The translations under genes and the position numbers were made by a program. A stretch of 64,000 nucleotides of DNA. Source: Faecalibacterium prausnitzii. Its GTDB lineage: Bacteria > Bacillota > Clostridia > Oscillospirales > Ruminococcaceae. Shown piece by piece: positions 46,507 to 60,653 of this stretch. The notes below the pieces were generated by a model. The model searched no databases, was not told the DNA's origin, and saw nothing but the letters and a program-made list of their open reading frames with translations. The stretch lies in the NCBI RefSeq assembly GCF_003287405.1, contig NZ_PRLD01000001.1, positions 124,001 to 188,000 of the forward strand. Reading direction: 5' to 3'. Position 1 is the first letter of the stretch, and the number at the start of each line of letters is the position of its first letter.

Positions 46507-47505
46507 TTATTCATCCTGAAGGCTTAAAATATCGCCCAAGCAAATATAGGTTTGGATAATGCACCGTGTCGCATCTTGTCTTGTCACCTCATGATGAACG
46601 CCCTTACATTGCAAGTCCGTAAGATTATCCATCCAATCCAGTAGATAAATCACATTGCTTCCAACCATACTTTTAGATGGACTCTTATCTTCTAACCTTT
46701 CAATCACCGCTGAAAGTTTGTTTTTATAGTGTTCTCCACTAACGTCAATTTCCTTTCCAGACTTCGTTGTATATTTTTTATCCTTATAGTCTGGGAAGTA
46801 TTTGTCAAAAAGTTCTTTTGCCGTGCCTTCAAAGAGTCTCCGACATGTTGTTAACGCCTGCGAATACAACTCTGGATTATCCGAATTAATTTTATCTTCT
46901 ATAGCTTGAAGCTTCAGAAGATTCTCCTTTGAAATTTTTGAGAATTCATTTTCTACTCTTGCACGATACTCAGAAAAAACTGTTGTTGCTACATTTCCAA
47001 AGGAAATCTCAATCTGTTTTTCGAGTGCGAAATCATAATACTTTGATTTCAGAATAGATAAACGCTTTTCTGACAATGCTATTTGTCTAACCAGTGCTCC
47101 CGTTGAATTTGATACAGTCATTGTCAATTTGTCCATTGCAATTGCTGCCCATTCTCCTGAAACAGAAGTTCCCTGAGTAGTAAAATTATTTACCGCGCTA
47201 CGCTGTGCCACAATCTTCTCTTCAAGCTCTGAGGCTATCTCTGAAAACACAAGCTCTTTTCCGTCCTCAACGTATCCCCTTCCTTTTTTCCACGCTATCC
47301 GCCATGCATCTTGCTGAATATGGCCATCTTGATTTCTAGGGTACCCACCATATTCATATTGAAGCCAGATTATCGCATCTGTATCATTCAACAATCTCGC
47401 AATTTTCAAACATAGCAACAGTGCTGATGTTACCGTTATGGCATTATCCTCTATACCATTCAAGACTTTCTCACATGCTTCTAATGCCTTTTCTGTTTTA
47501 GTCAC
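46507..47505 (-). CDS. AbiTii-like N-terminal domain protein of the restriction operon
   Basis: This 332-residue protein has an N-terminal region resembling the AbiTii domain of abortive-infection-type proteins (ALLLCLKIARLLNDTDAI, then IWLQYEYGGYP, about 28-56). A mixed middle follows, and then a C-terminal helical region (about 200-330) with RRLFEGTAKELFDKYFPD and TDLQCKGVHHEVTRQDA. It is clearly A+T-richer than the core genome. Its GTG start overlaps the hsdR stop (GTGA, 47502-47505), so it is made together with the restriction subunit. Activity is unknown; a defence accessory role is inference. Confidence 0.6.
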   Translation of the reverse strand: MTKTEKALEACEKVLNGIEDNAITVTSALLLCLKIARLLNDTDAIIWLQYEYGGYPRNQDGHIQQDAWRIAWKKGRGYVEDGKELVFSEIASELEEKIVAQRSAVNNFTTQGTSVSGEWAAIAMDKLTMTVSNSTGALVRQIALSEKRLSILKSKYYDFALEKQIEISFGNVATTVFSEYRARVENEFSKISKENLLKLQAIEDKINSDNPELYSQALTTCRRLFEGTAKELFDKYFPDYKDKKYTTKSGKEIDVSGEHYKNKLSAVIERLEDKSPSKSMVGSNVIYLLDWMDNLTDLQCKGVHHEVTRQDATRCIIQTYICLGDILSLQDE

Positions 47506-50500
47506 GTTTTTTCCTCCTCAAATGAGCTTCCACCAATCCCAAAGAACTTGTCAAAGAAGCTCTTCAACTTATCGATTACACCCTGCTTCTTCTGCGCACG
47601 GCCACCGCCGCCAAAGCGGGAAACAGGTGGCATCAGCTTGTCAATATCCGTGCCAACAGTCTTGATTTCGCCATCACGGAACGCATTGGCCAGATATTTG
47701 CGCGTTTCCGGCTCCTTCAGTTTTTCCTCTTGGATGATCTTTGCAAGCTCTTTCTCCCGCTGTTCTGACACAAAGGTGTTCCACTCTGCCACCACGTCAT
47801 CCACATCGTTGACCCCTGCAATAAAGGTTTCAATCAGCTGCTTTTTGCTGCGCAGTTCTGGGCTGGCATCAATTGCCTTGCGAATCGTGATGAGCACTTC
47901 TTTATCATCGCAATGGGTATCATGGTACTTTTTGACCAGCATCAGGATGTAGTCAATGTTAATTTCGACCTGCCGAATCAGTTCCACCTCGAACACCACA
48001 TCATCCGTGATGTCCTCTTTGGTTTCATCGTGCTTCTTATTGCGCCATTCATCTCGCAAGTCCTGATAGCGGCCTAAGTAGTCCTGTAAATCCCGCTCCG
48101 AGATCAGCTCGTTGCCCTTGAAATCATCAAAGGAGGACAGCAGGTTCCGCATCCGCAGCAGTGCGCCAAACAGCACGATAAAGTCTTTCTGGTTCTGCTC
48201 CCCGATGATTTGCGGCTCTGTCAGCGGGAACTTCTGCGTCAGGTCATCGATCATGTCCATATAGCCCTGATGGTATTTTCCCTGCTCATCCATATAACCG
48301 TGGTAGTAGTCCGCATATTTGCGCAGCAGAACGATGCCGCCCGCATTTTTATCTCCAAACAGCGAAATTGCCGCATCCACCCGCTTTTGCAGATTGCGGA
48401 AACAGACGATATTGCCAAAGGTCTTGATGCTGTTCAAGATACGGTTCGTCCGGCTGAACGCCTGAATCAGACCGTGCATCTTCAGGTTTTTGTCCACCCA
48501 AAGGGTGTTCAGCGTGGTGGCATCGAAGCCTGTCAGGAACATATTGACGACGATCAGCAGGTCAAGTTCCTTGTTCTTCATGCGGAGCGATACATCTTTG
48601 TAGTAATTCTGGAACCGTTCACCATCCGTCGAGTAGTTCGTATGGAACATCTCGTTGTAGTCCTGAATGGCGGCATCCAGAAAATCCCGGCTGCTCTGGT
48701 CAAGGTTGGAGGTATCTTCCGGGTTTTCCTCGTCCAGAATCCCGTCTGTTTCTGCTTCATTGGCTCCATAGCTGTAAATGGTAGCAATGCGCAGCCGCTT
48801 GGTTGGGTCTGCCGCCATCTGTTTTTTGAACTCCTGATAATACAGCTTTGCCATCGGCACAGAAGCCACGCAAAAAATCGAATTAAAACCGCTGACGCGC
48901 TGTTTTTGCTTGATTTCCTCCACCGTACCACGCTGGGCAGAGGCTACCTCTGCCACATTCGTCAGCAGATTAAACTCATACGATTTGTCTCCCCGATAGG
49001 TTTTCTGGTCGAAGTGGTCGAGGATGTACTTTGTCACCAGAGAAATACGCTTGGGTGCCATGAACGCCTTTTCCCGGTCAATGTCCCAAACCTGCTTGTC
49101 ATCCATATCTGGCTCTGCATCCATCGTCTTGATGTAATCCACACGGAATGGCAGCACATTCTTGTCGTTGATAGCATCCACGATGGTGTAGGTATGCAGT
49201 GGTAGAACCTTTTCGCCTTTTTCATTTGGTTCACCGCCAAACAACTGAGGCGTTGTCCTCATACCGGGTTTTCCGCTCGTACCTGCATTTGCTGCGTAAA
49301 TCGGTGTTCCGGTAAAACCGAACAGGTAGTACTTTTTGAAGTTGTGAACGATAGCACCGTGCATATCACCGAACTGGCTGCGGTGGCACTCGTCAAAGAT
49401 GATCACAACATGCTTCTGGTAGACCTCATGCCCCGGATTTTTCTTGATGAAGGTCGCCAGCTTCTGGATGGTGGTAATGATGATATGTGCTTCCGGGTTT
49501 TCCAACTGGCGTTTCAGAATCGTGGTGCTGGTGTTGGAGTTTGCCGCGCCCTTCTCGAAGCGGTCATACTCTTTCATAGTCTGGTAGTCCAAATCCTTGC
49601 GGTCTACCACAAACAGCACCTTGTCGATGCAGGGCAGCTGCGATGCCAGCCGTGCCGTTTTGAAGGAGGTCAGCGTCTTGCCGGAGCCAGTGGTGTGCCA
49701 GATGTAGCCGCCGCCCTCGATGCTGCCATACTTTTTGTAGTTGTTGGCGATCTCGATGCGGTTCAATATCCTCTCGGTTGCCGTGATCTGATATGGGCGC
49801 ATCACCATCAGCATCTTTTCTGAGGTAAAGATGCAGTACCGGGTCAGCACGCTCAGAATCGTGTGCTTTGCAAAGAATGTCCGGGTAAAGTCGATCAGAT
49901 CCGTCAGCACGCGGTTGTTCGCATCGGCCCAGTAGGAGGTAAATTCAAAGCTATTGCTGGTCTTTTCCTTTTTCGTCTTGCCGTGTTTGGCATCCTTGAT
50001 GGCATTGTAGCGGGTGCTGTTGGAGTAGTACTTGGTATTTGTGCCGTTGGAGATTACAAAAATCTGCACATACTCATATAAGCCGCAGCCCGCCCAGAAC
50101 GAATCCCGCTGATAGCGGTTGATTTGGTTGAACGCCTCCCGGATGGCCACCCCGCGCCGCTTCAGTTCCACATGAACCAGCGGAAAGCCGTTGACCAGAA
50201 TCGTCACATCGTAGCGATTATCATGCCGCGCACCGTCCGCCTGCTTCACCTCGTACTGGTTGATGACCTGCAGGCGGTTGTTGTGGATGTTCTTCTTGTC
50301 GATCAGCGTGATATTTTTGGAACTGCCATCATCCCGGTGCAATACCTGCACATTATCTTCCTGAATCTTCCGGGTCTTTTCGGGAATGTGCTCGTTGGGG
50401 TTGGCAATTACATCACTGAAAAACTGCTGCCACTCCGTATCGGAAAACTGGTAGTGGTTCAGTTCTTCCAGTTGGCTGCGGAGGTTAGCAATCAGTTCAT

Positions 50501-50669
50501 CCTCGGTATGCAGCGGCAGATAGGTGTAGCCCTGCTCGCACAACAGCCGGATAAATTCTTTCTCCAGTTCTGCCTCACTCTGGTAGCTGTCAGAGCGCAC
50601 CTTGGAGGGTTCATAGGCAGCAACAACGGTATCTTCATTGGTAGCCGCAACGATATTGAAAAAGGACAT
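47502..50669 (-). CDS. hsdR: Type I restriction enzyme, R (endonuclease/translocase) subunit
   Basis: HsdR translocates DNA with ATP and cuts unmethylated DNA at a distance. The 1055-residue product has the PD-(D/E)XK nuclease (RYDVTILVNG, HVELKRRG, about 155-180). The SF2 helicase motifs are WHTTGSGKTLTSF (Walker A), IIFDECHRSQFGD (DEAD-like), and FTGTPI, then VNMFLTGFDATTLNTLWVDK. The C-terminal helical part is long. The ATG at 50669 is preferred; a GTG two codons earlier is also near the site. It lies 15 nt after the GIY-YIG gene, and its stop overlaps the AbiTii-like gene. Confidence 0.95.
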   Translation of the reverse strand: MSFFNIVAATNEDTVVAAYEPSKVRSDSYQSEAELEKEFIRLLCEQGYTYLPLHTEDELIANLRSQLEELNHYQFSDTEWQQFFSDVIANPNEHIPEKTRKIQEDNVQVLHRDDGSSKNITLIDKKNIHNNRLQVINQYEVKQADGARHDNRYDVTILVNGFPLVHVELKRRGVAIREAFNQINRYQRDSFWAGCGLYEYVQIFVISNGTNTKYYSNSTRYNAIKDAKHGKTKKEKTSNSFEFTSYWADANNRVLTDLIDFTRTFFAKHTILSVLTRYCIFTSEKMLMVMRPYQITATERILNRIEIANNYKKYGSIEGGGYIWHTTGSGKTLTSFKTARLASQLPCIDKVLFVVDRKDLDYQTMKEYDRFEKGAANSNTSTTILKRQLENPEAHIIITTIQKLATFIKKNPGHEVYQKHVVIIFDECHRSQFGDMHGAIVHNFKKYYLFGFTGTPIYAANAGTSGKPGMRTTPQLFGGEPNEKGEKVLPLHTYTIVDAINDKNVLPFRVDYIKTMDAEPDMDDKQVWDIDREKAFMAPKRISLVTKYILDHFDQKTYRGDKSYEFNLLTNVAEVASAQRGTVEEIKQKQRVSGFNSIFCVASVPMAKLYYQEFKKQMAADPTKRLRIATIYSYGANEAETDGILDEENPEDTSNLDQSSRDFLDAAIQDYNEMFHTNYSTDGERFQNYYKDVSLRMKNKELDLLIVVNMFLTGFDATTLNTLWVDKNLKMHGLIQAFSRTNRILNSIKTFGNIVCFRNLQKRVDAAISLFGDKNAGGIVLLRKYADYYHGYMDEQGKYHQGYMDMIDDLTQKFPLTEPQIIGEQNQKDFIVLFGALLRMRNLLSSFDDFKGNELISERDLQDYLGRYQDLRDEWRNKKHDETKEDITDDVVFEVELIRQVEINIDYILMLVKKYHDTHCDDKEVLITIRKAIDASPELRSKKQLIETFIAGVNDVDDVVAEWNTFVSEQREKELAKIIQEEKLKEPETRKYLANAFRDGEIKTVGTDIDKLMPPVSRFGGGGRAQKKQGVIDKLKSFFDKFFGIGGSSFEEEKT

Positions 50670-50684
50670 TTTCACACCCGCCTT

Positions 50685-51365
50685 TTACTCATACAAACCT
50701 GCTTCTTCTCGTTCCACTCGAATATCTCGCAGTTTTCTTCCCTGATAAAGCCAATGCACCGGCCCTTGTAGCGGATAGGTCGTCTGCATGATTTTTTGAG
50801 CTAACGCAGAAAGCGAATAGGTTTTACCCTGATACTCAATTTGCCTATCATCTTTTACAACGGCTACAACCTCAGGATGATTTTGCAGCACAACCTCTGC
50901 CCCCATCGGAATACCACATTTAATAAATGAGAACGGGGCTTTGCGTTCTTTTGCTTCTTCCTGAATTTCAGCCGCAACTTCTTCGTCTGCAATCTCATGG
51001 CCTTCCGGGGTAAGGCGCTGCAGTTTGTCCATTGTGCCGCTTAATTTTGCAATGCTCTCCAAAAGCGCATAAGCATCCTCTTTTGTCATTGCATAAAACT
51101 CTTTTGTTCTTGTCTTGCCATCGAACGTATCAATAGCGCGCAAATCAGGATTCAAACGGTCGATCAGGCTATGCAGTTCTTTATCTTGTAGCGGAGCCGA
51201 AACATCGTAAGTAGCATATACCCGAAACGCAAATGGGATGCACTCGCTTCGATTTAACTGTTTCAGTCGATTTTCGATATTGGTCGCATAGCCAATTTTT
51301 ACATAATCCGGGAAAGAGGGATTTGTCAGGATATAAATTACACCAGCCTTTTTTGCTGCACTCAC
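50685..51365 (-). CDS. GIY-YIG (T5orf172-type) protein with a C-terminal DUF4357-like domain
   Basis: The 226-residue product has an N-terminal GIY-YIG-like domain (VIYILTNPSFPDYVKIGYAT, about 9-28, then NRLKQLN). The C-terminal domain (about 145-220) has FSFIKCGIPMGAEVVL, YQGKTYSLSALAQKIM and a final WLYQGRKLRDIRVE. This pattern fits DUF4357 and the related modified-DNA reader domain RAMA. It is embedded between hsdS and hsdR with a GTGA overlap to the second hsdS. It may be a nuclease that senses modified DNA, but this is inference. Confidence 0.75.
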   Translation of the reverse strand: MSAAKKAGVIYILTNPSFPDYVKIGYATNIENRLKQLNRSECIPFAFRVYATYDVSAPLQDKELHSLIDRLNPDLRAIDTFDGKTRTKEFYAMTKEDAYALLESIAKLSGTMDKLQRLTPEGHEIADEEVAAEIQEEAKERKAPFSFIKCGIPMGAEVVLQNHPEVVAVVKDDRQIEYQGKTYSLSALAQKIMQTTYPLQGPVHWLYQGRKLRDIRVEREEAGLYE

Positions 51366-51931
51366 GTTGCAGCCACCTCCTTAAATGTCAACAATTTATC
51401 TCTGTAATATTCATACTGTTTTTGGCGTGCTTCAATTTCAGCGGGCAGGCCGCTGGTCAAATCATTGCAGATAGCATCAAAACGGTCAAGAATATCCACA
51501 ATATATTTTTGCCGTTCCTGACTCGGAAGCGGAATTTCGATTCGGTTCAAATTCTTCTGGTTCAATTTAGGCTGTGCGCCGCCCGAAATATATAGAGCCA
51601 AATCAATCGAGTTCAAATAAAACTCTACAAACCGTCTGGTTTCGTAGCAATCAAACTTCAAAACGTGCGCATGATTATTGACCCAGTTTTTCCCCGAAAT
51701 TGAAAACGCAATCGGCGTACTTCTTGCCAAAAGATTTGCGCCATCTTCTGACACAAGCAGGTAATCGCCGTCAAAAATATAATCCTTTACATAATCCACG
51801 ATGCCAGAAGCCCCATAATACGGGTACTCTCCCGCTTCACGTTTACCACTTGTGACAGGCTTACGCATACTGTCGCAATTTTCAGCAATATCTTCAAGTG
51901 TAACAACTGCGTAGCCAAACACATACTGCAA
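51362..51931 (-). CDS. hsdS: Half-size type I specificity subunit (one TRD)
   Basis: This 189-residue HsdS-type polypeptide has a single target recognition domain (about 10-140; KREAGEYPYYGASGIVDYV, ISGGAQPKLNQKNL). A coiled-coil conserved region follows (about 140-189; RQKYIVDILDRFDAICNDL, EARQKQYEYYRDKLLTF). Its start is a TTG at 51931, five bases after the stop of the upstream two-TRD hsdS. Upstream of the TTG the same frame is open through the pentanucleotide repeat, so it may be the fourth quarter of a fused specificity gene. Alone it could dimerise or exchange TRDs. Confidence 0.85.
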   Translation of the reverse strand: MQYVFGYAVVTLEDIAENCDSMRKPVTSGKREAGEYPYYGASGIVDYVKDYIFDGDYLLVSEDGANLLARSTPIAFSISGKNWVNNHAHVLKFDCYETRRFVEFYLNSIDLALYISGGAQPKLNQKNLNRIEIPLPSQERQKYIVDILDRFDAICNDLTSGLPAEIEARQKQYEYYRDKLLTFKEVAAT

Positions 51932-51935
51932 GAGT

Positions 51936-53300
51936 TTAATCAGTGCTCTGCTCTGCTCTGCTCTGCTCTGCTCTGCTCTGCTCTGCTCTGCTCAAAATTG
52001 TGTTGCCGGTTTCTACAAATGTCAAGAGTTTATCTCGGTAATACTCGTACTGCTTCTGCCGTGCTTCAATTTCAGCAGGCAAACCAATATTTAGGTCGGA
52101 GCATATCTTCTCAAAGTTGTCTAGAACCTCGACAATTCGGTTTTGCACATCGAGGGGCGGAACATCCACTTCAAATTGCTCTAACTCTCTCATACCAAGA
52201 TTCGGTTGTGACCCATGACTGGCTTTTGCTTTCACCTGTTTTTGAACTTTTTCAGTCTGAAGTAGGTAGAAAAGGAACCTTGCCGAATTTTGCTCATTCA
52301 CTCTCATCGCCGCTAATGGTGACCATATATTAAATCTAATATCTGTATCAACAAACGCCACCTTCCCAGTTGTTGAACCCGATTTCACCATATAAACATC
52401 ATTTTTCTGTGGCTTATATTTTTTACAACATTCTTCGTCAAACGCTTCAGTAATGTATCCTCTCATTTTTTCAAAATGTATCTTTCCATCCCAAATTGAA
52501 TCGACCGAGATAAATGGCACTCCATTTTGAACAAATTGCGGCGTTGTATGTGGGCCATCTGTTATTGGCTGCGAAAGCATATCAATTATTTTAACGTGAT
52601 ACCATTGAGACTTCATTGATAAAAGACTATCTCTATAATACGCATATTGTGTCTTTCTGGCTGTAAGCTCCGCTGTAAGTTGCCTCTGCAATTCTACAAC
52701 ACTTTCAGTATAGCTATCCAACATACGGACAATTTCACGCTGAATCTCAATAGGAAGTCGTGGAAACTGGAATTTTGCAAATTTCTTCATATCAACTGAT
52801 GCAAAATTTCCCTGATTTAAGCACTCTTTACAGTACTCGTCCAACTTAAAGCAGTAGTAATAAAGAAATTTAGGGTCATAATCATCCTTATATTGTTCCT
52901 TTACCATCAAATATGTAAATCTCTGATTTGCAATTGATGGCACTGTAATTAACGCATGCTCACCAATTGTTGCTGACGTAGCAACAATAATAGAGTTTTC
53001 CGGGAAAGGGTCACCCTTTATCGCATTTATGGAAACGTACTGCATAGCATGGTCGAGAATACCGCCATTCTCCCGAATGTCTTCCATACGAAACCATGGT
53101 ACTGTTCCATTTTCCCAAAAGTTCTTTTCTTTTTTTGATGGCGTATACCCATTACGTGTATTGAATATCTCCGACAATGGCTTGTACTCTACACCATCCG
53201 GGCAAAGTTTTTGAATCAAATCGTCCAGCTTACAGTTCGCTAAACAGCCTATATCCCTTTTCTGAGAATTCTTTTGGAATGATATGACACTTTTTATCAA
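51936..53300 (-). CDS. hsdS: Type I specificity subunit (two TRDs) ending in a pentanucleotide repeat
   Basis: HsdS sets the target sequence of the HsdM/HsdR complex. This 454-residue version has TRD1 (about 35-180), coiled coil (about 185-228, MLDSYTESVVELQRQL), TRD2 (about 232-392) and a second coiled coil (about 395-440). The tail repeats SRAEQ three times and ends STD. That tail is read from ten copies of a 5-bp unit, so copy changes shift the frame. The canonical N-terminus KLDDLIQKLCPDGVEY begins at about residue 24. The 5' end overlaps the previous gene by 71 nt and the start (TTG, 53300, just after GGAGGA) is uncertain. Confidence 0.88.
   Translation of the reverse strand: MIKSVISFQKNSQKRDIGCLANCKLDDLIQKLCPDGVEYKPLSEIFNTRNGYTPSKKEKNFWENGTVPWFRMEDIRENGGILDHAMQYVSINAIKGDPFPENSIIVATSATIGEHALITVPSIANQRFTYLMVKEQYKDDYDPKFLYYYCFKLDEYCKECLNQGNFASVDMKKFAKFQFPRLPIEIQREIVRMLDSYTESVVELQRQLTAELTARKTQYAYYRDSLLSMKSQWYHVKIIDMLSQPITDGPHTTPQFVQNGVPFISVDSIWDGKIHFEKMRGYITEAFDEECCKKYKPQKNDVYMVKSGSTTGKVAFVDTDIRFNIWSPLAAMRVNEQNSARFLFYLLQTEKVQKQVKAKASHGSQPNLGMRELEQFEVDVPPLDVQNRIVEVLDNFEKICSDLNIGLPAEIEARQKQYEYYRDKLLTFVETGNTILSRAEQSRAEQSRAEQSTD
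51944..51993 (-). repeat. Pentanucleotide tandem repeat (10 x CTCTG on the plus strand) in hsdS
   Basis: The plus strand carries nine full CTCTG units (51946-51990) plus partial units on both sides, 50 bp in all. In the coding direction the unit is CAGAG. None of its codons in any of the three frames is a stop, and each frame encodes the same five-residue cycle of S, R, A, E and Q. Tracts of this kind expand and contract by slippage at replication. Confidence 0.97.
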
Positions 53301-53862
53301 CTTCCTCCAGCGACTGTTTGAATGGGCGCCTTTTTCCTTTTTGCCCTATCAAGTTTATATTTTCATTTTGCGCCACTTGATATGTAATGCCTTCCATGAT
53401 TTCTCTTAAGTAGACAATTGCTCCTGCTCCAAGCCCATCACTAAAGGCCCTATCCGCCTTATCCAAATACTCCGTATATTTTCCGTATGCACCATGTGAA
53501 ATTGAAACATTCTCTGGAAGTTTTTCTGTCCTTTTCAAGATTCTTACCCAAACCGTAGTATCTGTAACTTCATTCCTACTTTCCACCAGATACCAAATAG
53601 GAACAGTTGTTGCACATCGGGGGCATTTCAACACACAATCGATACTTACCAAATAATTTGTGACACCGATACATGCTATTTTAGCTCTATCTCCCATTGA
53701 AAAGGTTAAATCGCTTCCACAGTTTTTACAGTAAAAGGCCCTGCAAACAACGCCTACGTCTAATCTTTGCTGTCCACCACACGGGAGTTTCTTTTTCAGA
53801 AATCCATCGACTTGTTGGAATTCCAAGTTAGGTTCCTTTGATAATACATCTGACAGGCGCAT
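53230..53862 (-). CDS. Zinc-ribbon hypothetical protein, probably truncated at its C-terminus
   Basis: This 210-residue protein has a cysteine-rich N-terminal half with FYCKNCGSDL and LKCPRCATTVP, which could bind zinc. A helical second half follows (AFSDGLGAGAIVYLREIMEG, then KGKRRPFKQSLEEVDKKC and FSEKGYRLFSEL at the end). It stops abruptly at what looks like the middle of a conserved helix, just where the canonical hsdS N-terminus begins in another frame. It may be a joined or shortened gene. It is A+T-rich, lies 16 nt after the rhuM stop, and starts behind AGAGGAA. Function is unknown. Confidence 0.6.
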   Translation of the reverse strand: MRLSDVLSKEPNLEFQQVDGFLKKKLPCGGQQRLDVGVVCRAFYCKNCGSDLTFSMGDRAKIACIGVTNYLVSIDCVLKCPRCATTVPIWYLVESRNEVTDTTVWVRILKRTEKLPENVSISHGAYGKYTEYLDKADRAFSDGLGAGAIVYLREIMEGITYQVAQNENINLIGQKGKRRPFKQSLEEVDKKCHIIPKEFSEKGYRLFSEL

Positions 53863-53878
53863 TTTTTATTCCTCTATG

Positions 53879-54919
53879 TCAAGTTTCACTATTTTCCACC
53901 AAATATCTGTCAAAATCGCTCTGGTAAAGTCTGTCCTGCACCACACGGTACTTTTCAAACTCCGTTTCGGCGTGCATTTTTGCAAGCTGTGCCGAGATTT
54001 TGCCCGCGTCCTTCAGCACTTCCAGATCATCTGCCTGCAAATAGATGTCCAGCCGCTTAGCCCAGTCCTCCATGGTCATGGGAATATGACGGCGGGCACG
54101 GTTCTCGGCAAGGTCGAGGTATGCCGAAACGATCAGCTCCATGGACTTCATTTCATCTTCGGTCAGGTAGTTTTTCGCTACCGAAACATCGCTCTTTTTG
54201 ATTTTGCCGTTGGGAGCATCCTTCCATGTGTGAAGCCCCATGTGCGGTTTTTCGGCATCGGCACGCTCATAGATCAGCTCTGCCGCCGTATGGCGATGCA
54301 CGGCATAGTGCATCTTATTCTGCACCTTCGCAAAGAACTCTTTTGTGGTCAGCGCATTGCGGTCATAATCCAGCGAAGTAGCGTAAATGTCAGTAAGTTT
54401 CTGGTAGAAGTTGCGCTCCGAAATGCGGATCTCCCGGATACGCTCCAACTGCTCTTCAAAGTATTTCTTGGTCAGGACTGTGCCACCGTTTTTCAGGCGT
54501 TCTTCGTCCATTGCCCAGCCCTTGATAGTATACTGCTCCACGATCTGATTTGCCCAGACACGGAACCGCACCGCCCGCTGGTTGTTCACCTTGAAGCCGA
54601 CCGCAATAATCATTTGCAGATTATAGTGGTTCACGCTGCGAGTAACCTGTCGGCCACCCTCATTTTGAACTATTCGGAATTTCCGAATCGTTGCCGCCTC
54701 GTCCTGCTCATGGTCAGCATAAATCTTTTTGATATGCTCATTGATGGTCGGAAGCCCCACATCGTAAAGGGTCGCCATCATCTTTTGCGTCAACCAGATA
54801 TTTTCATCCTCGTAGCGCATCTCAATGCTGTCCTTGTCCTCGCCCGTAGAGGCAACAAAGGTCAGGTATTCCGCCGCAGAAGAACGTATCAATGCAGAAT
54901 CCTTCTTTTCGTTTTCCAT
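53879..54919 (-). CDS. rhuM: RhuM family protein
   Basis: RhuM (virulence protein) family members are common inside type I restriction operons and other islands, without a settled function. The 346-residue product has an N-terminal winged-helix-like part with NIWLTQKMMATLYDVGLP and INEHIKKIY. The RhuM core has GRQVTRSVNHYNLQMIIAVG, RFRVWANQ and TVLTKKYFEEQLERIREIR. The ATG at 54919 lies one base after the hsdM stop, so the two are strongly coupled. Confidence 0.88.
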   Translation of the reverse strand: MENEKKDSALIRSSAAEYLTFVASTGEDKDSIEMRYEDENIWLTQKMMATLYDVGLPTINEHIKKIYADHEQDEAATIRKFRIVQNEGGRQVTRSVNHYNLQMIIAVGFKVNNQRAVRFRVWANQIVEQYTIKGWAMDEERLKNGGTVLTKKYFEEQLERIREIRISERNFYQKLTDIYATSLDYDRNALTTKEFFAKVQNKMHYAVHRHTAAELIYERADAEKPHMGLHTWKDAPNGKIKKSDVSVAKNYLTEDEMKSMELIVSAYLDLAENRARRHIPMTMEDWAKRLDIYLQADDLEVLKDAGKISAQLAKMHAETEFEKYRVVQDRLYQSDFDRYLVENSET

Positions 54920-54920
54920 T

Positions 54921-56483
54921 TCAGCCCTCGATTTCTGCCACGATCTGGTCAATGGCGGCCCGCAGTTCGTTTTCTCGTGCTACGATTTGCGCAATTTCAG
55001 CGTTCAGCTTTACAATGTCGATCTTCTCACGGGTGTCCTTAGCCTCCACATAAGTAGAAACCGACAGGTTGTAGTCATTTTCCTGCACCTCGGAATACTC
55101 TGCCAGATGGGAGAAGTGTGATTCTTCTGCCCGCTGTGCAAAAGTGTCCACGATTTTATTGATGTTCTCCGGCGTGAGCTTGTTGTTATTGGTCACCTTG
55201 ACGCACTCGGAAGAAGCATCAATGAACAGCACCTTGTTGTCCGTTTTACCCTTTTTCAGCACCATGATGCAGGTGGCAATACTGGTACCAAAGAACAGGT
55301 TGCTCGGCAACTGGATGATGCAGTCAATAAAGTTGTTGTCCACCAGATACTTGCGAATTTTCTGCTCTGCGCCGCCACGGTACATGATGCCGGGGAAACA
55401 AACGATTGCCGCCGTGCCGTTGGAAGCCAACCATGCCAGCGAGTGCATAATAAAGGCCAAGTCTGCCTTGCTCTTCGGAGCCAGCACACCAGCTGGAGCA
55501 AAACGCGGGTCATTGATGAGCAGCGGATTCTCGTCACCGGCCCACTTGATGGAGTACGGCGGATTCGATACGATCAGCTCAAAGGGTTCATCATCCCAGT
55601 GCTGCGGATTGGTCAGCGTGTCCTCACAGGCAATGTCGAATTTGTCAAATTCAATGTCGTGCAGAAACATATTGATGCGGCACAGGTTATACGTTGTGAT
55701 GTTGATTTCTTGTCCAAAGAAGCCATTGCGCACGGCATCCCGTCCCAGCACCTTTTCTGCCTTCAGCAGCAGCGAACCGGAACCGCAGGCCGGGTCATAG
55801 ACCTTGTTGATTTCCTTCTTTCCTACCGTACCCAGCCGGGTCAGCAGCTCCGAAACATCGGCAGGCGTAAAGAACTCGCCGCCGGACTTGCCCGCATTGC
55901 TGGCGTACATGGTCATCAGGTATTCATAGGCATCGCCAAAGGCATCAATGTCATGCTCTTTCACATCGCCAAGGTTCATATCTGCCACGCCGTTCAGCAG
56001 TTTCACGAGCTTCTCATTGCGCTTGGCAACAGTCGCACCCAGCTTATTGCTGTTGACATCGTAATCATCGAACAACCCTGCAAACTGCCCCTCGGAGGAG
56101 CTGCCCTTTGCGGATTCCTCAATGTGCCGGAAGACTGTTTCCAGCGTTTCGTTGAGGTTTTCATCGCTGGCCGCTTTTGCCCGCACATTGCAGAACAACT
56201 CACTGGGCAGGATGAAGAACCCTTTTTCCTGTACCAGCCCTTCCCGTGCCTGCTTTGCCTCTGCATCAGACATATCTTCATAGCGGAAGTCCGGGTTACC
56301 TGCATCAATTTCGCCCTGATTGATATAGCTGGCAATGTTCTCCGAAATATAACGGTAGAACATCGTACCGAGAACGTAGCTCTTGAAATCCCATCCGTCC
56401 ACTGCGCCGCGCAGATCATCCGCAATCGCCCAGATTGCACGGTGCAGTTCTTCGCGTTCCTGCTCTTTTTTGGTGTCTACCAT
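54921..56483 (-). CDS. hsdM: Type I restriction enzyme, M (methyltransferase) subunit
   Basis: HsdM is the SAM-dependent N6-adenine methyltransferase that, with HsdS, protects host DNA. The 520-residue product has an N-terminal helical HsdM_N domain (about 1-150) and the Rossmann domain with [15 protein letters not shown] (motif I) and [11 protein letters not shown] (catalytic NPPY). [15 protein letters not shown] follows, with a coiled-coil C-terminus. The ATG at 56483 follows GGAGGA at 7 nt. It is first in the operon hsdM-rhuM-ZnR-hsdS-hsdS'-GIY-hsdR-AbiTii. Confidence 0.96.
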
Positions 56484-57367: not shown

Positions 57368-58636
57368 TTATAGCTCTACGTTGTTCTGCCTGTTCTTCTT
57401 CTGGCTTCTATCCGCAGTCTGCTCCCGCTCCCTCATAAGTCCAATGACCTGCTGCATCTTTTCGGCACCGAAATAGTTCCATACTCGCCTGAAATCACGT
57501 TTCATCGCATAGAACTGCGAATTCTCAGCTTTTACCTGTTCCAGCTGCTGGCTCAAATGGCGAGTAGCTTTCTTCTCGTCCTGATAGAAATACTGGTACT
57601 TATCCCTCTCGTTCTTAACCTCCCAGTACTTCCGATGGAGGGCAAAGAGTACCTTCACCAACTTCTGGATCAGCGGCATGGCCTTCTTCTCCCGATAGCT
57701 CTTGGCGGTCTCAAATGTGGCTGCTTCTGGCACCCATTCTTCTGGCCGCTGGGAGTATTGCGCTGACAGGTTTTCCAGCCCCTCCATGATGGGAGCCAGC
57801 TTGTTCAGCTTCTGGCTTTGCTTCTGGTAGGTCAGCTCTGCTTTCTGTACCCGCTGTTCAGCGGCTTCTACGGCTGTCTGCGCTGTTTCCAGCTGTTCCT
57901 GCATCTCGGTCAGGTCGGTCTGGCACTCCTGCTTGGTAGCTTCCAGAGCCGCTACCTCTTTACTACGCTCCTGCTTTTTGAAGTCCAGCACAGACAGGTG
58001 CTCTTCGTGGGTGCCTTTCTGTTCCCACTCGATGCCGTGCCGCTCCATCACGGCAGCAAGCTGCTCTTTCTCGGCGTTGATCCACTGGTTCAGTTCGGAT
58101 TCTCGCTTGGAGCCGCCTGCAAAACCCAAGGCCTTCAGAGCCTGCTTCAGGGAGACCTTGGTGTCCAGTCCTTTGCCCTTCCAGCCGGACACATACGGCA
58201 CGAAGTCGATGTGCAGATGGGGCGTAGCTTCATCCATGTGGAGGAAAGCCCCGAACACCCGCAGTGTCGGGTTCCGCTCTTGGAAGCCCTGCATATACTC
58301 GTCCAGCAGTTCCTTTGCCAGTGCGCCATTCTCGGTCAGGACACCCATATCATCTTTGTTGCCGATCTGGACGATCAGCTCATGGAAAAGCTTTTCCTGC
58401 TTGCCTGTCCGCAGGTGCTCATAGTAGTCGGTGATACAGCGGTCCTTGCGCTTCTGCTTGGCATTGTAACGCTTCACTGCCTCGTCAAACAGTTCGTGGT
58501 ACACCTTCTGAATCGGCTCATCACGGTACACGACATTCAGACTGCTGCGCTTCGGGTCTACGTTTTCAGCGGTGAAACTTCTCCTGTTATGGTTGAGGGA
58601 GCCGGGACCCCGCATTGCGGAAATAGTTCTTTTCAA
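57368..58636 (-). CDS. mobV: MobV family relaxase (plasmid recombination/mobilization protein)
   Basis: MobV relaxases nick oriT and lead the strand into the recipient during mobilization. The 422-residue product begins KRTISAMRGPGSLNHNRR and has the catalytic/metal signature HMDEATPHLHIDFVPY (about 133-148). A long coiled-coil C-terminal half (about 225-400) follows. The start is probably a TTG at 58636, 7 nt after AAAGGA; a GTG two codons earlier is too near the site. Upstream lie palindromes that could be oriT. With no type IV secretion genes, a helper is needed. Confidence 0.92.
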   Translation of the reverse strand: MKRTISAMRGPGSLNHNRRSFTAENVDPKRSSLNVVYRDEPIQKVYHELFDEAVKRYNAKQKRKDRCITDYYEHLRTGKQEKLFHELIVQIGNKDDMGVLTENGALAKELLDEYMQGFQERNPTLRVFGAFLHMDEATPHLHIDFVPYVSGWKGKGLDTKVSLKQALKALGFAGGSKRESELNQWINAEKEQLAAVMERHGIEWEQKGTHEEHLSVLDFKKQERSKEVAALEATKQECQTDLTEMQEQLETAQTAVEAAEQRVQKAELTYQKQSQKLNKLAPIMEGLENLSAQYSQRPEEWVPEAATFETAKSYREKKAMPLIQKLVKVLFALHRKYWEVKNERDKYQYFYQDEKKATRHLSQQLEQVKAENSQFYAMKRDFRRVWNYFGAEKMQQVIGLMREREQTADRSQKKNRQNNVEL

Positions 58637-58889
58637 TCGCACGTCCTTTCTCTGTAGAAGTAACTGGTACCGGACACGACAAAGGCTTTGTTACTTTCGT
58701 CGAAAGTAACGCAAAAGCACTTTTGACAGACGTTCCGTCCATCAAAAGATGCCTTTGCGCCCTGCCGGGGGCTTCCGTCTGCGGACGGGGTTTCGCTGTA
58801 CCTCGCCGCTGCCCGGTCCAACACCACCTTCCTGCGTGATTGCATTCACAGGAGCGTGTCACGCTCCTGTCCTCTGCCAATAGAGGGAC
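58637..58889. other. Candidate oriT region upstream of mobV
   Basis: About 250 bp without a gene, rich in palindromes. GTTACTTTCG-T-CGAAAGTAAC lies at 58690-58710, CTTTTGA...TCAAAAG at about 58720-58748, and ACAGGAGCGTG-T-CACGCTCCTGT at 58848-58870. MobV origins usually lie just upstream of the relaxase gene and contain such repeats. Confidence 0.55.
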
Positions 58890-59155: not shown

Positions 59156-59213
59156 TGTGACGGTATTTTACATAGTAGCAAAAATACCGTCACAACCGTC
59201 ACGAATCGTCACG
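59156..59213. repeat. Inverted repeat and GTGACG iteron-like repeats next to repA
   Basis: TGTGACGGTATTTT (59156-59169) and AAAATACCGTCACA (59181-59194) form a perfect 14-bp inverted repeat. CGTCAC recurs at about 59187, 59197 and 59207, close to one helical turn apart. They lie between the RepA-like gene and the next small gene and could be a replication origin or a strong terminator. Confidence 0.5.
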
Positions 59214-60333
59214 CCCCAGAATTTTCCAGCGTTAATTTGACTACCCTACCCTCATGGGTGCGCCTGCTTTCGTACCGAATTCCATAATCGTTGTAGAGCC
59301 TGTCGGCACTCACGTTCAGCTTCCGGGTCAGGATGTTTGCCTGTATGCTCACACCCGACAGCCGTTCCAGCAGTTCCGTGGGCGTACCACTCCACTCCGG
59401 CTGTTCCGGGGTGAGCACCTTTGCCACCGCTTCCAGAAGCGGGTCGGGCGGCAGTTTCCAGAGTTCCGTTTCGGCTCCTTGGAACTCCCACACGCAGCGT
59501 TCCCGGTCAAACTCCAACGTCAGCTCCTGATCCGGCTGGTCGCGTCCTACGATGTCCAGCAGGGCGGTGTTGTCCGTGCGCCGCTTCTTCTGCATGATGA
59601 ATGCGCCATCCGCTGCCCCCAGCAGGCCATTGGTGCCGGAGATCATATCGAAGCTGTCTTCAGCTTCCATCTTCCGGGTGTGGTGGACCACCAGCAGGCA
59701 GATGCCGTACTTGTCGCTGAAGGTTTTCAGCTTGGTCACAATCTCGTAGTCGCTGGCGTAGCTGTATCGGTCACCGCCGATCTCCCGCACCTTCTGCAGG
59801 GTGTCGATGATGATGAGCCGCACATCCGGGTGCTCCCGGATGAAGCCTTCCAATTGCTGGTCAAGTCCCTCGCTCACGGACTTGGCTTGTGTTGCGAAGT
59901 AGAGATTGCTGGTCTCCTCTACCCCGAACATCCGGGAGAGCCGCCGCTGCAACCGGGCGTAATCGTCCTCCAACGCCAGATAGAGGACGGTGCCTTGATG
60001 CACCTCGTACTCCCACAGCGGAAGCCCCATCGCCACATGGTAGGCAAGCTGCCCCATGAAGAAGGACTTGCCCACCTTGGGCGCTCCTACAAAGAGGTAG
60101 GTGCCGCTGTACAGCAGGTCGTTCACGATGGGCTTCCGGGGTGGATACACCGTGTCGTACAGCTCGGTCATTGATACCGTGTTCAGCCCGAAATTGTTTG
60201 ACTTTTTCGCGGCTTGCAGATTGATTTGCTTGTCAGAATTTGTTATAATATTGGTGTTGATTTTTGAGGACGACTGTACCGCATCTGCGCCAACAGATGC
60301 ACTTGATACGGTCGTTTTTCTATTGTCCGTCAT
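59209..60333 (-). CDS. RepA-like AAA ATPase (AAA_25 family)
   Basis: This 374-residue RecA-type ATPase has Walker A in VGAPKVGKSFFMGQLAY (about 84-100), YLALEDDYARLQRR, Walker B LIIIDTLQKVRE, and VVHHTRKMEAEDSFDMISG. The C-terminal third looks like a DNA-binding region (ELLERLSGVSIQANILTRKL). Such proteins are hexameric helicases of small plasmids and mobile elements (RepA of RSF1010 type). The start ATG (60333) is 7 nt after AAGGAGG. It overlaps the MobC-like gene by 4 nt. Confidence 0.88.
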   Translation of the reverse strand: MTDNRKTTVSSASVGADAVQSSSKINTNIITNSDKQINLQAAKKSNNFGLNTVSMTELYDTVYPPRKPIVNDLLYSGTYLFVGAPKVGKSFFMGQLAYHVAMGLPLWEYEVHQGTVLYLALEDDYARLQRRLSRMFGVEETSNLYFATQAKSVSEGLDQQLEGFIREHPDVRLIIIDTLQKVREIGGDRYSYASDYEIVTKLKTFSDKYGICLLVVHHTRKMEAEDSFDMISGTNGLLGAADGAFIMQKKRRTDNTALLDIVGRDQPDQELTLEFDRERCVWEFQGAETELWKLPPDPLLEAVAKVLTPEQPEWSGTPTELLERLSGVSIQANILTRKLNVSADRLYNDYGIRYESRRTHEGRVVKLTLENSGA

Positions 60334-60653
60334 TCGCATTCCTCCTTAAGTCCGTTCAACGTCAGAGCCACCATTTGCAGGGTCTCCAGCAAGTCCGGCG
60401 GGACTTCTTCATCCACGGCCAGCCGCTGCAATTCCTGATAGATCAGCTTCATCTGGTCTCGCAGGGCTTTGTAGACCCTTGGGTTGCCTACCACGGTGAT
60501 TTCCCGGTCGGTCAAGCGGCGGATGATATACTCCTGTTTGGTCAGCCCGGAGAGCTTTACTTTGGCTTCCAGAACCTCGTCCTCTTCCGGGGACATTCGG
60601 AAGGCTACCACCTTGTTCCGCCAGCGGCCTTGCTGGTCGAGCACTCGTTCCAT
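60330..60653 (-). CDS. MobC-like mobilization relaxosome protein
   Basis: This 107-residue protein contains a ribbon-helix-helix-like N-terminal region (RNKVVAFRMSPEEDEVLEAK, then LSGLTKQEYIIRRL) and a helical C-terminus. It resembles MobC-type accessory proteins that help relaxases open oriT. The ATG at 60653 follows AAGGAG at 8 nt; another ATG two codons earlier overlaps the integrase stop but is too close to the site. It lies between integrase and repA. Confidence 0.75.
   Translation of the reverse strand: MERVLDQQGRWRNKVVAFRMSPEEDEVLEAKVKLSGLTKQEYIIRRLTDREITVVGNPRVYKALRDQMKLIYQELQRLAVDEEVPPDLLETLQMVALTLNGLKEECE

Follow-up and report, generated by a model that had tools for sequence, protein, structure and literature searches.

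A pentanucleotide array at an hsdS junction of Faecalibacterium prausnitzii as a probable switch between two- and three-TRD specificity subunits

Simple sequence repeats (SSRs) have been reported in 7.9% of hsdS genes (Atack et al., REBASE; PMC7394358). The arrangement closest to the one analyzed here is that of NgoAV in Neisseria gonorrhoeae, where a polyG tract separates hsdS1 from hsdS2 and, depending on its length, fuses the two frames and changes the methylated motif (PMC9577141, PMC6789123). A specificity (S) subunit with three target recognition domains (TRDs) is known from Helicobacter pylori J99, in which the single HsdS protein JHP1422 directs the methylation of two motifs, TRD1 together with TRD3, or TRD3 alone, being active (PMC3936762). 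TRD2 and TRD3 of JHP1422 are identical, an origin by duplication or recombination has been proposed, and the passages covered of that paper describe no repeat switch (PMC3936762). In the Type IIG enzymes JHP1272 / HP1353-HP1354, a second homopolymer tract determines by frame whether a TRD-like domain is added at the C-terminus, with a change of specificity (PMC3936762). Finally, TRDs move between positions in inverting hsdS loci of the SpnIII type and, by recombination (DOMO), in H. pylori (PMC3077401), a feature shared with the loci compared here.

The locus described here lies in a 64-kb stretch of F. prausnitzii DNA, the whole of which is called the window. Like NgoAV, as described in the parts of the sources covered, it carries a slippage tract between two hsdS reading frames; it differs in that NgoAV joins 1 + 1 TRD through a homopolymer, turning a half subunit into a normal one, whereas here a pentanucleotide lies between 2 + 1 TRDs, so that joining turns a normal subunit into an oversized one. 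Junctions of this type have repeat units of 2, 4 or 5 bp and are found mostly in the window's class. Joined homologues share with JHP1422 the presence of three TRDs in one S subunit, but the window differs from JHP1422, as far as its published description was covered, in that its three TRDs are all different and are governed by a frame switch. The window encodes a Type I S subunit, whereas JHP1272 / HP1353-HP1354 is a single-chain Type IIG enzyme with a homopolymer and a small domain. Unlike recombinase-driven inverting hsdS loci of the SpnIII type, window positions 50600-54000 contain no inverted-repeat pairs of at least 20 nt. The first-pass annotation held a slippage switch between two and three TRDs to be undescribed; none was found in the literature searched, which did not extend to a REBASE survey of Type I repeats, nor in the portions covered of PMC3936762, PMC3077401, PMC7394358, PMC6158711, PMC12707154, PMC9577141, PMC6789123, PMC10810217 and PMC3874165, and the claim needs to be qualified by the precedents of NgoAV, JHP1422 and JHP1272. 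We consider it highly probable (about 85%) that the array is a contingency (phase-variation) tract toggling HsdS(TRD1-TRD2) and HsdS(TRD1-TRD2-TRD3), most likely with a change of motif.

The hsd locus and its frame arithmetic

The features on which the argument rests are the following.

47502..50675, minus strand: hsdR, 1057 aa, open; TIGR00348 above cut-off
50685..51365, minus strand: T5orf172-domain gene between TRD3 and hsdR; PF10544
51362..51943, minus strand: TRD3 with the C-terminal conserved region, in a frame without stops back across the array; one Methylase_S stretch
51936..51943, minus strand: CTGATTAA, immediately behind the array; its TGA and TAA close two frames, the third reading L-I-K into TRD3
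51936..53300, minus strand: hsdS ORF with TRD1 and TRD2; 454 aa by first start; two Methylase_S stretches
51944..51993, minus strand: array of ten GAGCA units, the proposed slippage tract; E-Q-S-R-A in every frame
51994..52133, minus strand: middle conserved region, ..VLDNFEKICSDLNIGLPAEIEARQKQYEYYRDKLLTF..NTIL; precedes the array in related loci too
51997..52025, minus strand: promoter-like TTGACA-N17-CACAAT, with 3 nt between its second hexamer and the array
53230..53862, minus strand: accessory ORF between the RhuM-family gene and hsdS, without Pfam or NCBIfam match
53879..54952, minus strand: RhuM-family gene inside the hsd cluster; PF13310
54921..56501, minus strand: hsdM; TIGR00497 above cut-off

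The gene order is hsdM, RhuM-family gene, accessory ORF, hsdS, array, TRD3, T5orf172 gene, hsdR and AbiTii-domain gene; with hsdM and hsdR in one locus, this is a complete Type I restriction-modification system. The true start of the two-TRD hsdS is uncertain, and its ORF overlaps the upstream ORF. Beside the hsd locus lie genes with Mob_Pre (57368-58642) and AAA_25 (59209-60339) domains, which suggest a mobile-element location. When the window (positions 50685-51365, 53230-53862 and 53879-54952) was compared by eye with L040, L043, L176, L214 and L220, the accessory genes of the hsdM-hsdS and TRD3-hsdR intervals were seen to vary by locus, the junction being kept.

The array was detected by TRF as 10.0 copies of TGCTC on the plus strand with 100% match and is the only period-5 array listed in the window; in 20 first-order Markov windows, at most three tandem copies of any 4-6 bp unit occurred, versus ten here. 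TRF and the ORFs confirm that ten perfect 5-bp units at 51944-51993 join the two-TRD hsdS to a one-TRD frame, which is open back through the array, and the tract is indeed free of stops in all three frames and encodes the same E-Q-S-R-A cycle in each. With 10 units (and equally with 7 or 13) the hsdS frame ends, as had been proposed, just past the tract, one residue beyond the array being followed by a stop (..AEQSTD*), and with 11, 8, 5 or 14 units it continues for 193 further codons into the second ORF, in agreement with the gain of one unit or loss of two that had been predicted to join both parts. Loss of one unit had been expected to lead into a third, non-HsdS frame; instead, 9, 6 or 12 units bring a stop at the first codon, so that the 9-unit two-TRD protein is nearly identical to the 10-unit product.

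The window is in the split state at 10 units. Replication slippage that adds or removes GAGCA units would shift the frame: in one frame of three (11 or 8 units) HsdS would run through the E-Q-S-R-A linker into a third TRD, and in the other two (10 or 9 units) a stop within two codons would leave the ordinary two-TRD subunit. A lineage would in this way toggle between HsdS forms, and the methylated and restricted DNA motif(s) would most likely change with them.

Related junctions in the genus and beyond

Among the window, G008, G015 and G012, all of the window's genus, HsdM is 99-100% identical, and a comparison of repeat counts among relatives, proposed with the first annotation, revealed differing copy numbers: 10 units in the window, 16 in G008 and 11 in G015. 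The 11-unit junction is joined, forming one 620-aa ORF with three Methylase_S stretches, which supports the phase switch proposed between two- and three-TRD forms, and the 16-unit junction is split (432 + 198 aa), as frame arithmetic predicts. The flanks of G008 and G012 are near-identical (109/120 and 36/40 bases) but their units are GAGCA and GGAAC, respectively, two G012 contigs ending within the GGAAC array; the junction of G001 has 17 GACA units and is split. The linker-peptide query matched 5 of the 31 genomes of the genus and left 26 without match, and four of the 31 contain at least five consecutive GAGCA units, some of these arrays lying outside hsdS.

At wider range, 20 of 347 family genomes matched the linker query at 1e-10, with an array at the junction in the fetched loci of eight (the count covers fetched loci and leaves out two further G158 matches), and 28 of 391 class genomes matched at 1e-11, with an array in the fetched loci of eight, the window's genome included (again a count of fetched loci, several second matches being left out). 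In the phylum sample, at the stricter 1e-16, the window's own genome alone matched among 249. A DNA pattern search added G413 (396 family genomes) and G522 (394 order genomes). In IMG/VR an array was present in 7 of 52 HsdS relatives, and neither GAGCA nor AAGC junctions were found there; a fixed Q-Y-V-F-G-Y pattern gave 13 IMG/VR stretches, namely six known loci and seven without an HsdS frame by motif. The conserved region had matches in 28 records of the plasmid collection, and the one looked at, a 2.1-Mb record of Fusobacterium vincentii SB055, has 35 AAGC units at the junction. Phage records gave no match, and an hsdS-like motif next to the array was seen at none of 80 listed GAGCA loci (at least 117 stretches). 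As an array-independent denominator, a DNA pattern for I-K-L-L-Q-Y-V-F-G was too strict (4/396 and 4/394 genomes) and missed G054, G199 and G271.

In all, 27 loci have an array at an hsdS junction, the window included (20 genomes or records and seven IMG/VR contigs). Their units are GACA in any rotation (20 loci), GAGCA (three) and GGAAC, GAAC, AAGC and AG (one each), that is, six kinds of unit whose lengths (2, 4 or 5 bp) are never divisible by 3. Their occurrence at a single protein junction, chiefly within the window's class but also in one Fusobacterium record, suggests a selected switch. Twenty-one loci have the array and both flanks, G012, G184, G229, G820, G1096 and G911 being cut or unclear at the array. 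At all 21, exactly one frame in three joins the parts and the TRD3 frame is open over at least 193 codons. Seven are joined, with three TRDs in one frame and three Methylase_S stretches in each, unlike the 10-unit window (G015, G199, G271, G413, L226, L264 and G778), and 14 are split (window, G008, G001, G054, L221, L223, L224, L247, L266, G801, G1008, G963, G522, whose contig starts inside hsdS, and Fusobacterium). Joined junctions made up 7 of the first 20, against a random expectation of 1/3 (p = 1). In the same 20 junctions, stops within 8 codons of the array close both other frames in every case (all 40), versus 10 of 27 ordinary hsdS genes whose two other frames both meet a stop this early at a comparable position; as the loci are related and not independent, the corresponding p = 5e-6 is optimistic and serves as a guide only.

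The repeat thus shifts the frame and varies in length among homologues, as SSR phase-variable genes do, and it joins two hsdS frames in the manner of NgoAV, both by frame logic and by the two states found in relatives. Slippage within a strain is inferred. It is very unlikely that the junction is a decaying three-TRD hsdS whose neutral array drifts between the joined and split states: in G1032 the TRD2 core is gone and an array relic is kept, leaving a fixed, array-free TRD1 + TRD3 protein, and the L247 copy looks degenerate, its hsdS frame before the array being just 100 aa, but six repeat units at one site, the TRD3 frames open in the 21 junctions and the stops fixed in both other frames argue against decay. 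That the copy number is an assembly artefact is hardly credible, although the assembly is a draft of 70 contigs and contig ends fall inside the array in five or more relatives (G012, G184, G820, G1096 and G911), since 50 bp is shorter than a typical read and arrays are present as well in records that are complete or consist of one contig (G801, Fusobacterium vincentii SB055). The slippage-type junction is real and conserved, and most likely toggles the third TRD of a Type I specificity subunit.

We also would like to point out 12-bp in-frame repeats (GCTGTAAGCTCx type, encoding T-A-E-L) inside the hsdS loci L287, L291, L295-L303, L305, L306, L308 and L311. They presumably lie between TRD1 and TRD2 and keep the frame, whereas the units between TRD2 and TRD3 shift it.

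A promoter-like motif beside the arrays

The TTGACA-N17-CACAAT motif directly preceding the array in the window matches the consensus at 10 of 12 positions. TTGAC is present at 23 of the 24 hsdS junctions with upstream sequence, window included, the exception being G522, and the whole motif scores at least 9/12 at 18 of the 24, the second hexamer being weak in five IMG/VR loci. According to a regular expression applied to these loci, TTGAC lies within L-L-T codons in 23/23 middle conserved regions versus 5/20 first and 5/22 C-terminal ones; it is not simply a matter of protein conservation, and the pattern also speaks against neutral decay of the locus. In L264 and L216, a TTGACA/TATAAT-like motif faces the hsdS array from the downstream side on the opposite strand (12 and 11 of 12, respectively).

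GAGCA arrays of the window's genus occur also at the 5′ end of an Acyl_transf_3-type gene (assigned by Pfam runs for L009 and L042): TRF found 20 copies at L009:6865-6964 (same genome, C70), 10 at L041:6146-6195, 14 at L042:6516-6585 and 14 at L044:6452-6521. They probably represent a further contingency locus, the second in this genus. The promoter-like motif is also present at four GAGCA arrays beside acyltransferase genes of these bacteria, with identical upstream sequences in two of the four.

The association was quantified at arrays unrelated to hsdS. Arrays of three chosen units were sampled (GAGCA, L058-L174; GACA, L318-L433; AAGC, L434-L486 and five others), many of which share gene families; hsdS loci and near-identical upstream sequences were removed, and a motif was counted if it scored at least 9/12 and ended 0-7 nt from the array. 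Among the matches listed, the motif abuts 85 of 188 arrays and is missing at 103, the counts by unit being 37/58 for GAGCA (at least 8 copies), 36/85 for GACA and 12/45 for AAGC, as compared with 1.1-1.6% at random positions; the mean over 200 shuffled hexamer pairs was 5.0 (sd 7.0, maximum 66). Counts by spacer length have their peak at 16 (34) and 17 nt (39), lengths of 14, 18 and 19 nt giving 25, 18 and 17, each spacing being counted alone and among the matches listed. The association is one-sided: again among the matches listed, the motif is found on the array side versus the opposite side in 29/65 versus 1/68 GAGCA arrays (at least 5 copies), 26/61 versus 2/63 GACA arrays and 12/45 versus 0/42 AAGC arrays. 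For 187 arrays (among the matches listed), exact TTGACA begins 29-35 nt ahead of the array start in 76 cases, as against 11 at all other distances from 7 to 100 nt. By GAGCA length, the motif accompanies 3/23 arrays of 5-7 copies, 10/17 of 8-11 and 16/25 of at least 12, among the matches listed, and motif-bearing loci are less GC-rich (0.45 vs 0.58). A comparison of units by divisibility by 3 was set aside, as it turned up no multiple-of-3 arrays and its set included the array-fetched loci L138-L174. In several arrays (L058-L137, e.g. L081 and L076), the order seen by eye is a Shine-Dalgarno-like stretch, TTGACA, start codon, second hexamer and array, which places the start codon inside the promoter-like spacer.

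As a sequence pattern, the association between motif and array is solid, although a match to the consensus does not in itself indicate promoter activity. The association may reflect promoter-driven slippage, seeding of arrays at start points or an internal promoter serving genes downstream. An ordinary internal promoter for hsdR would possibly account for the motif in hsdS, but would leave the same motif at arrays in unrelated genes unexplained. We tentatively entertain, at somewhat less than even odds, a general promoter-coupled slippage cassette, TTGACA-N16-18-TATAAT, strand-specific and shared by unrelated genes in both bacterial genomes and IMG/VR contigs, in which arrays would begin at a predicted sigma70-type start and the open complex would raise slippage or would have seeded the array; in hsdS, such a cassette would drive the switch between two- and three-TRD specificity. 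A promoter-like element at the array was unexpected and deserves separate study: if the motif is functional, it becomes testable why hypermutable repeats sit where they are found and whether transcription start drives their instability.

The third TRD and the effect of joining

The downstream frame had been annotated as a half-size hsdS. The one-TRD frame is real, and the corresponding ORF (51362-51931, minus strand, 189 aa) is counted from a TTG at 51931, but it does not bear out an independent gene with its own start, for which a good start is missing: the nearest starts are TTG at +12 and GTG at +21 past the array. The 13 split loci tested share no conserved TRD3 start codon, and none has an in-frame ATG in the 40 nt next to the array; the first in-frame start lies at +49 or +51 in two split loci, and none is found within 90 nt in G801. 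No Shine-Dalgarno sequence was seen by eye before TRD3 in split loci, the window included. Without a conserved start or visible Shine-Dalgarno sequence, TRD3 is best read as silent when split, and the 'half hsdS' is probably a silent third TRD rather than an independent gene.

These observations bear on an alternative in which both products are made in the split state, a translationally coupled TRD3 dimerising by itself to give a palindromic second specificity that joining removes. Half S subunits do dimerise and work in NgoAV, EcoR124I and CC398-1, as described in the parts covered of PMC9577141, PMC3874165 and PMC6158711, and the window has its TTG 12 nt past the array; the 13 split loci without conserved start, the Shine-Dalgarno sequence not visible by eye and the report that NgoAV hsdS2 encodes no active protein (PMC9577141, as covered) nevertheless make this alternative unlikely. 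A silent TRD3 that is added by joining remains the preferred reading.

TRD3 itself resembles the other two. Among 67 TRD cores compared, two partial segments having been dropped, 91 pairs share at least 50% identity over 70% of the shorter core; 52 of them are cross-position pairs, 32 of which involve position 3, and TRD1 of the window resembles TRD2 of G963 (71%) and TRD3 of L221 (65%). Judged by these similarities, TRD3 is drawn from the same pool as TRD1 and TRD2. TRD3 is common to G008 and G012 (97%), and no TRD pair of at least 50% identity exists among the window, G008 and G015, nor between the window's own TRDs, which therefore lack the identical TRD2 and TRD3 of JHP1422. By eye, the region after TRD2 (..LDNFExICSDLNIGLP..) differs from the ordinary C-terminus (..LDRFDxLCNDLSSGLP..).

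It might be argued that joining simply turns the system off, the three-TRD protein misfolding or being incapable of forming M2S, since fusion adds about 193 residues to a subunit whose conserved regions are normally in circular arrangement (PMC6158711, as covered). An OFF state, though, would need no intact TRD3, and the pool of TRD3 is that of TRD1 and TRD2; three Methylase_S stretches are kept in 7/7 joined forms; and the natural three-TRD subunit JHP1422 is active on two motifs (PMC3936762, in the passages covered). A plain ON/OFF switch thus appears improbable. An AlphaFold2 model of the joined L226 protein, built from 13 aligned rows, was poor (mean pLDDT 50.9) and uninformative on assembly.

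We favor instead a three-TRD subunit of altered function. Given that JHP1422 serves two motifs and that fusion changes specificity in NgoAV, changed or widened specificity is, by analogy, the most likely outcome of joining, and the methylated motif would presumably change. In 11 of the 12 genomes searched (all but G1008), the junction adjoins an open frame of hsdR type with 1028 aa or more, so that changes in methylation would probably be accompanied by changes in restriction. Provided that the joined protein is active, a third recognition domain would be gained through the gain or loss of one or two short repeats, and lineages would come to differ in methylation, phage resistance and possibly gene expression, without a recombinase.
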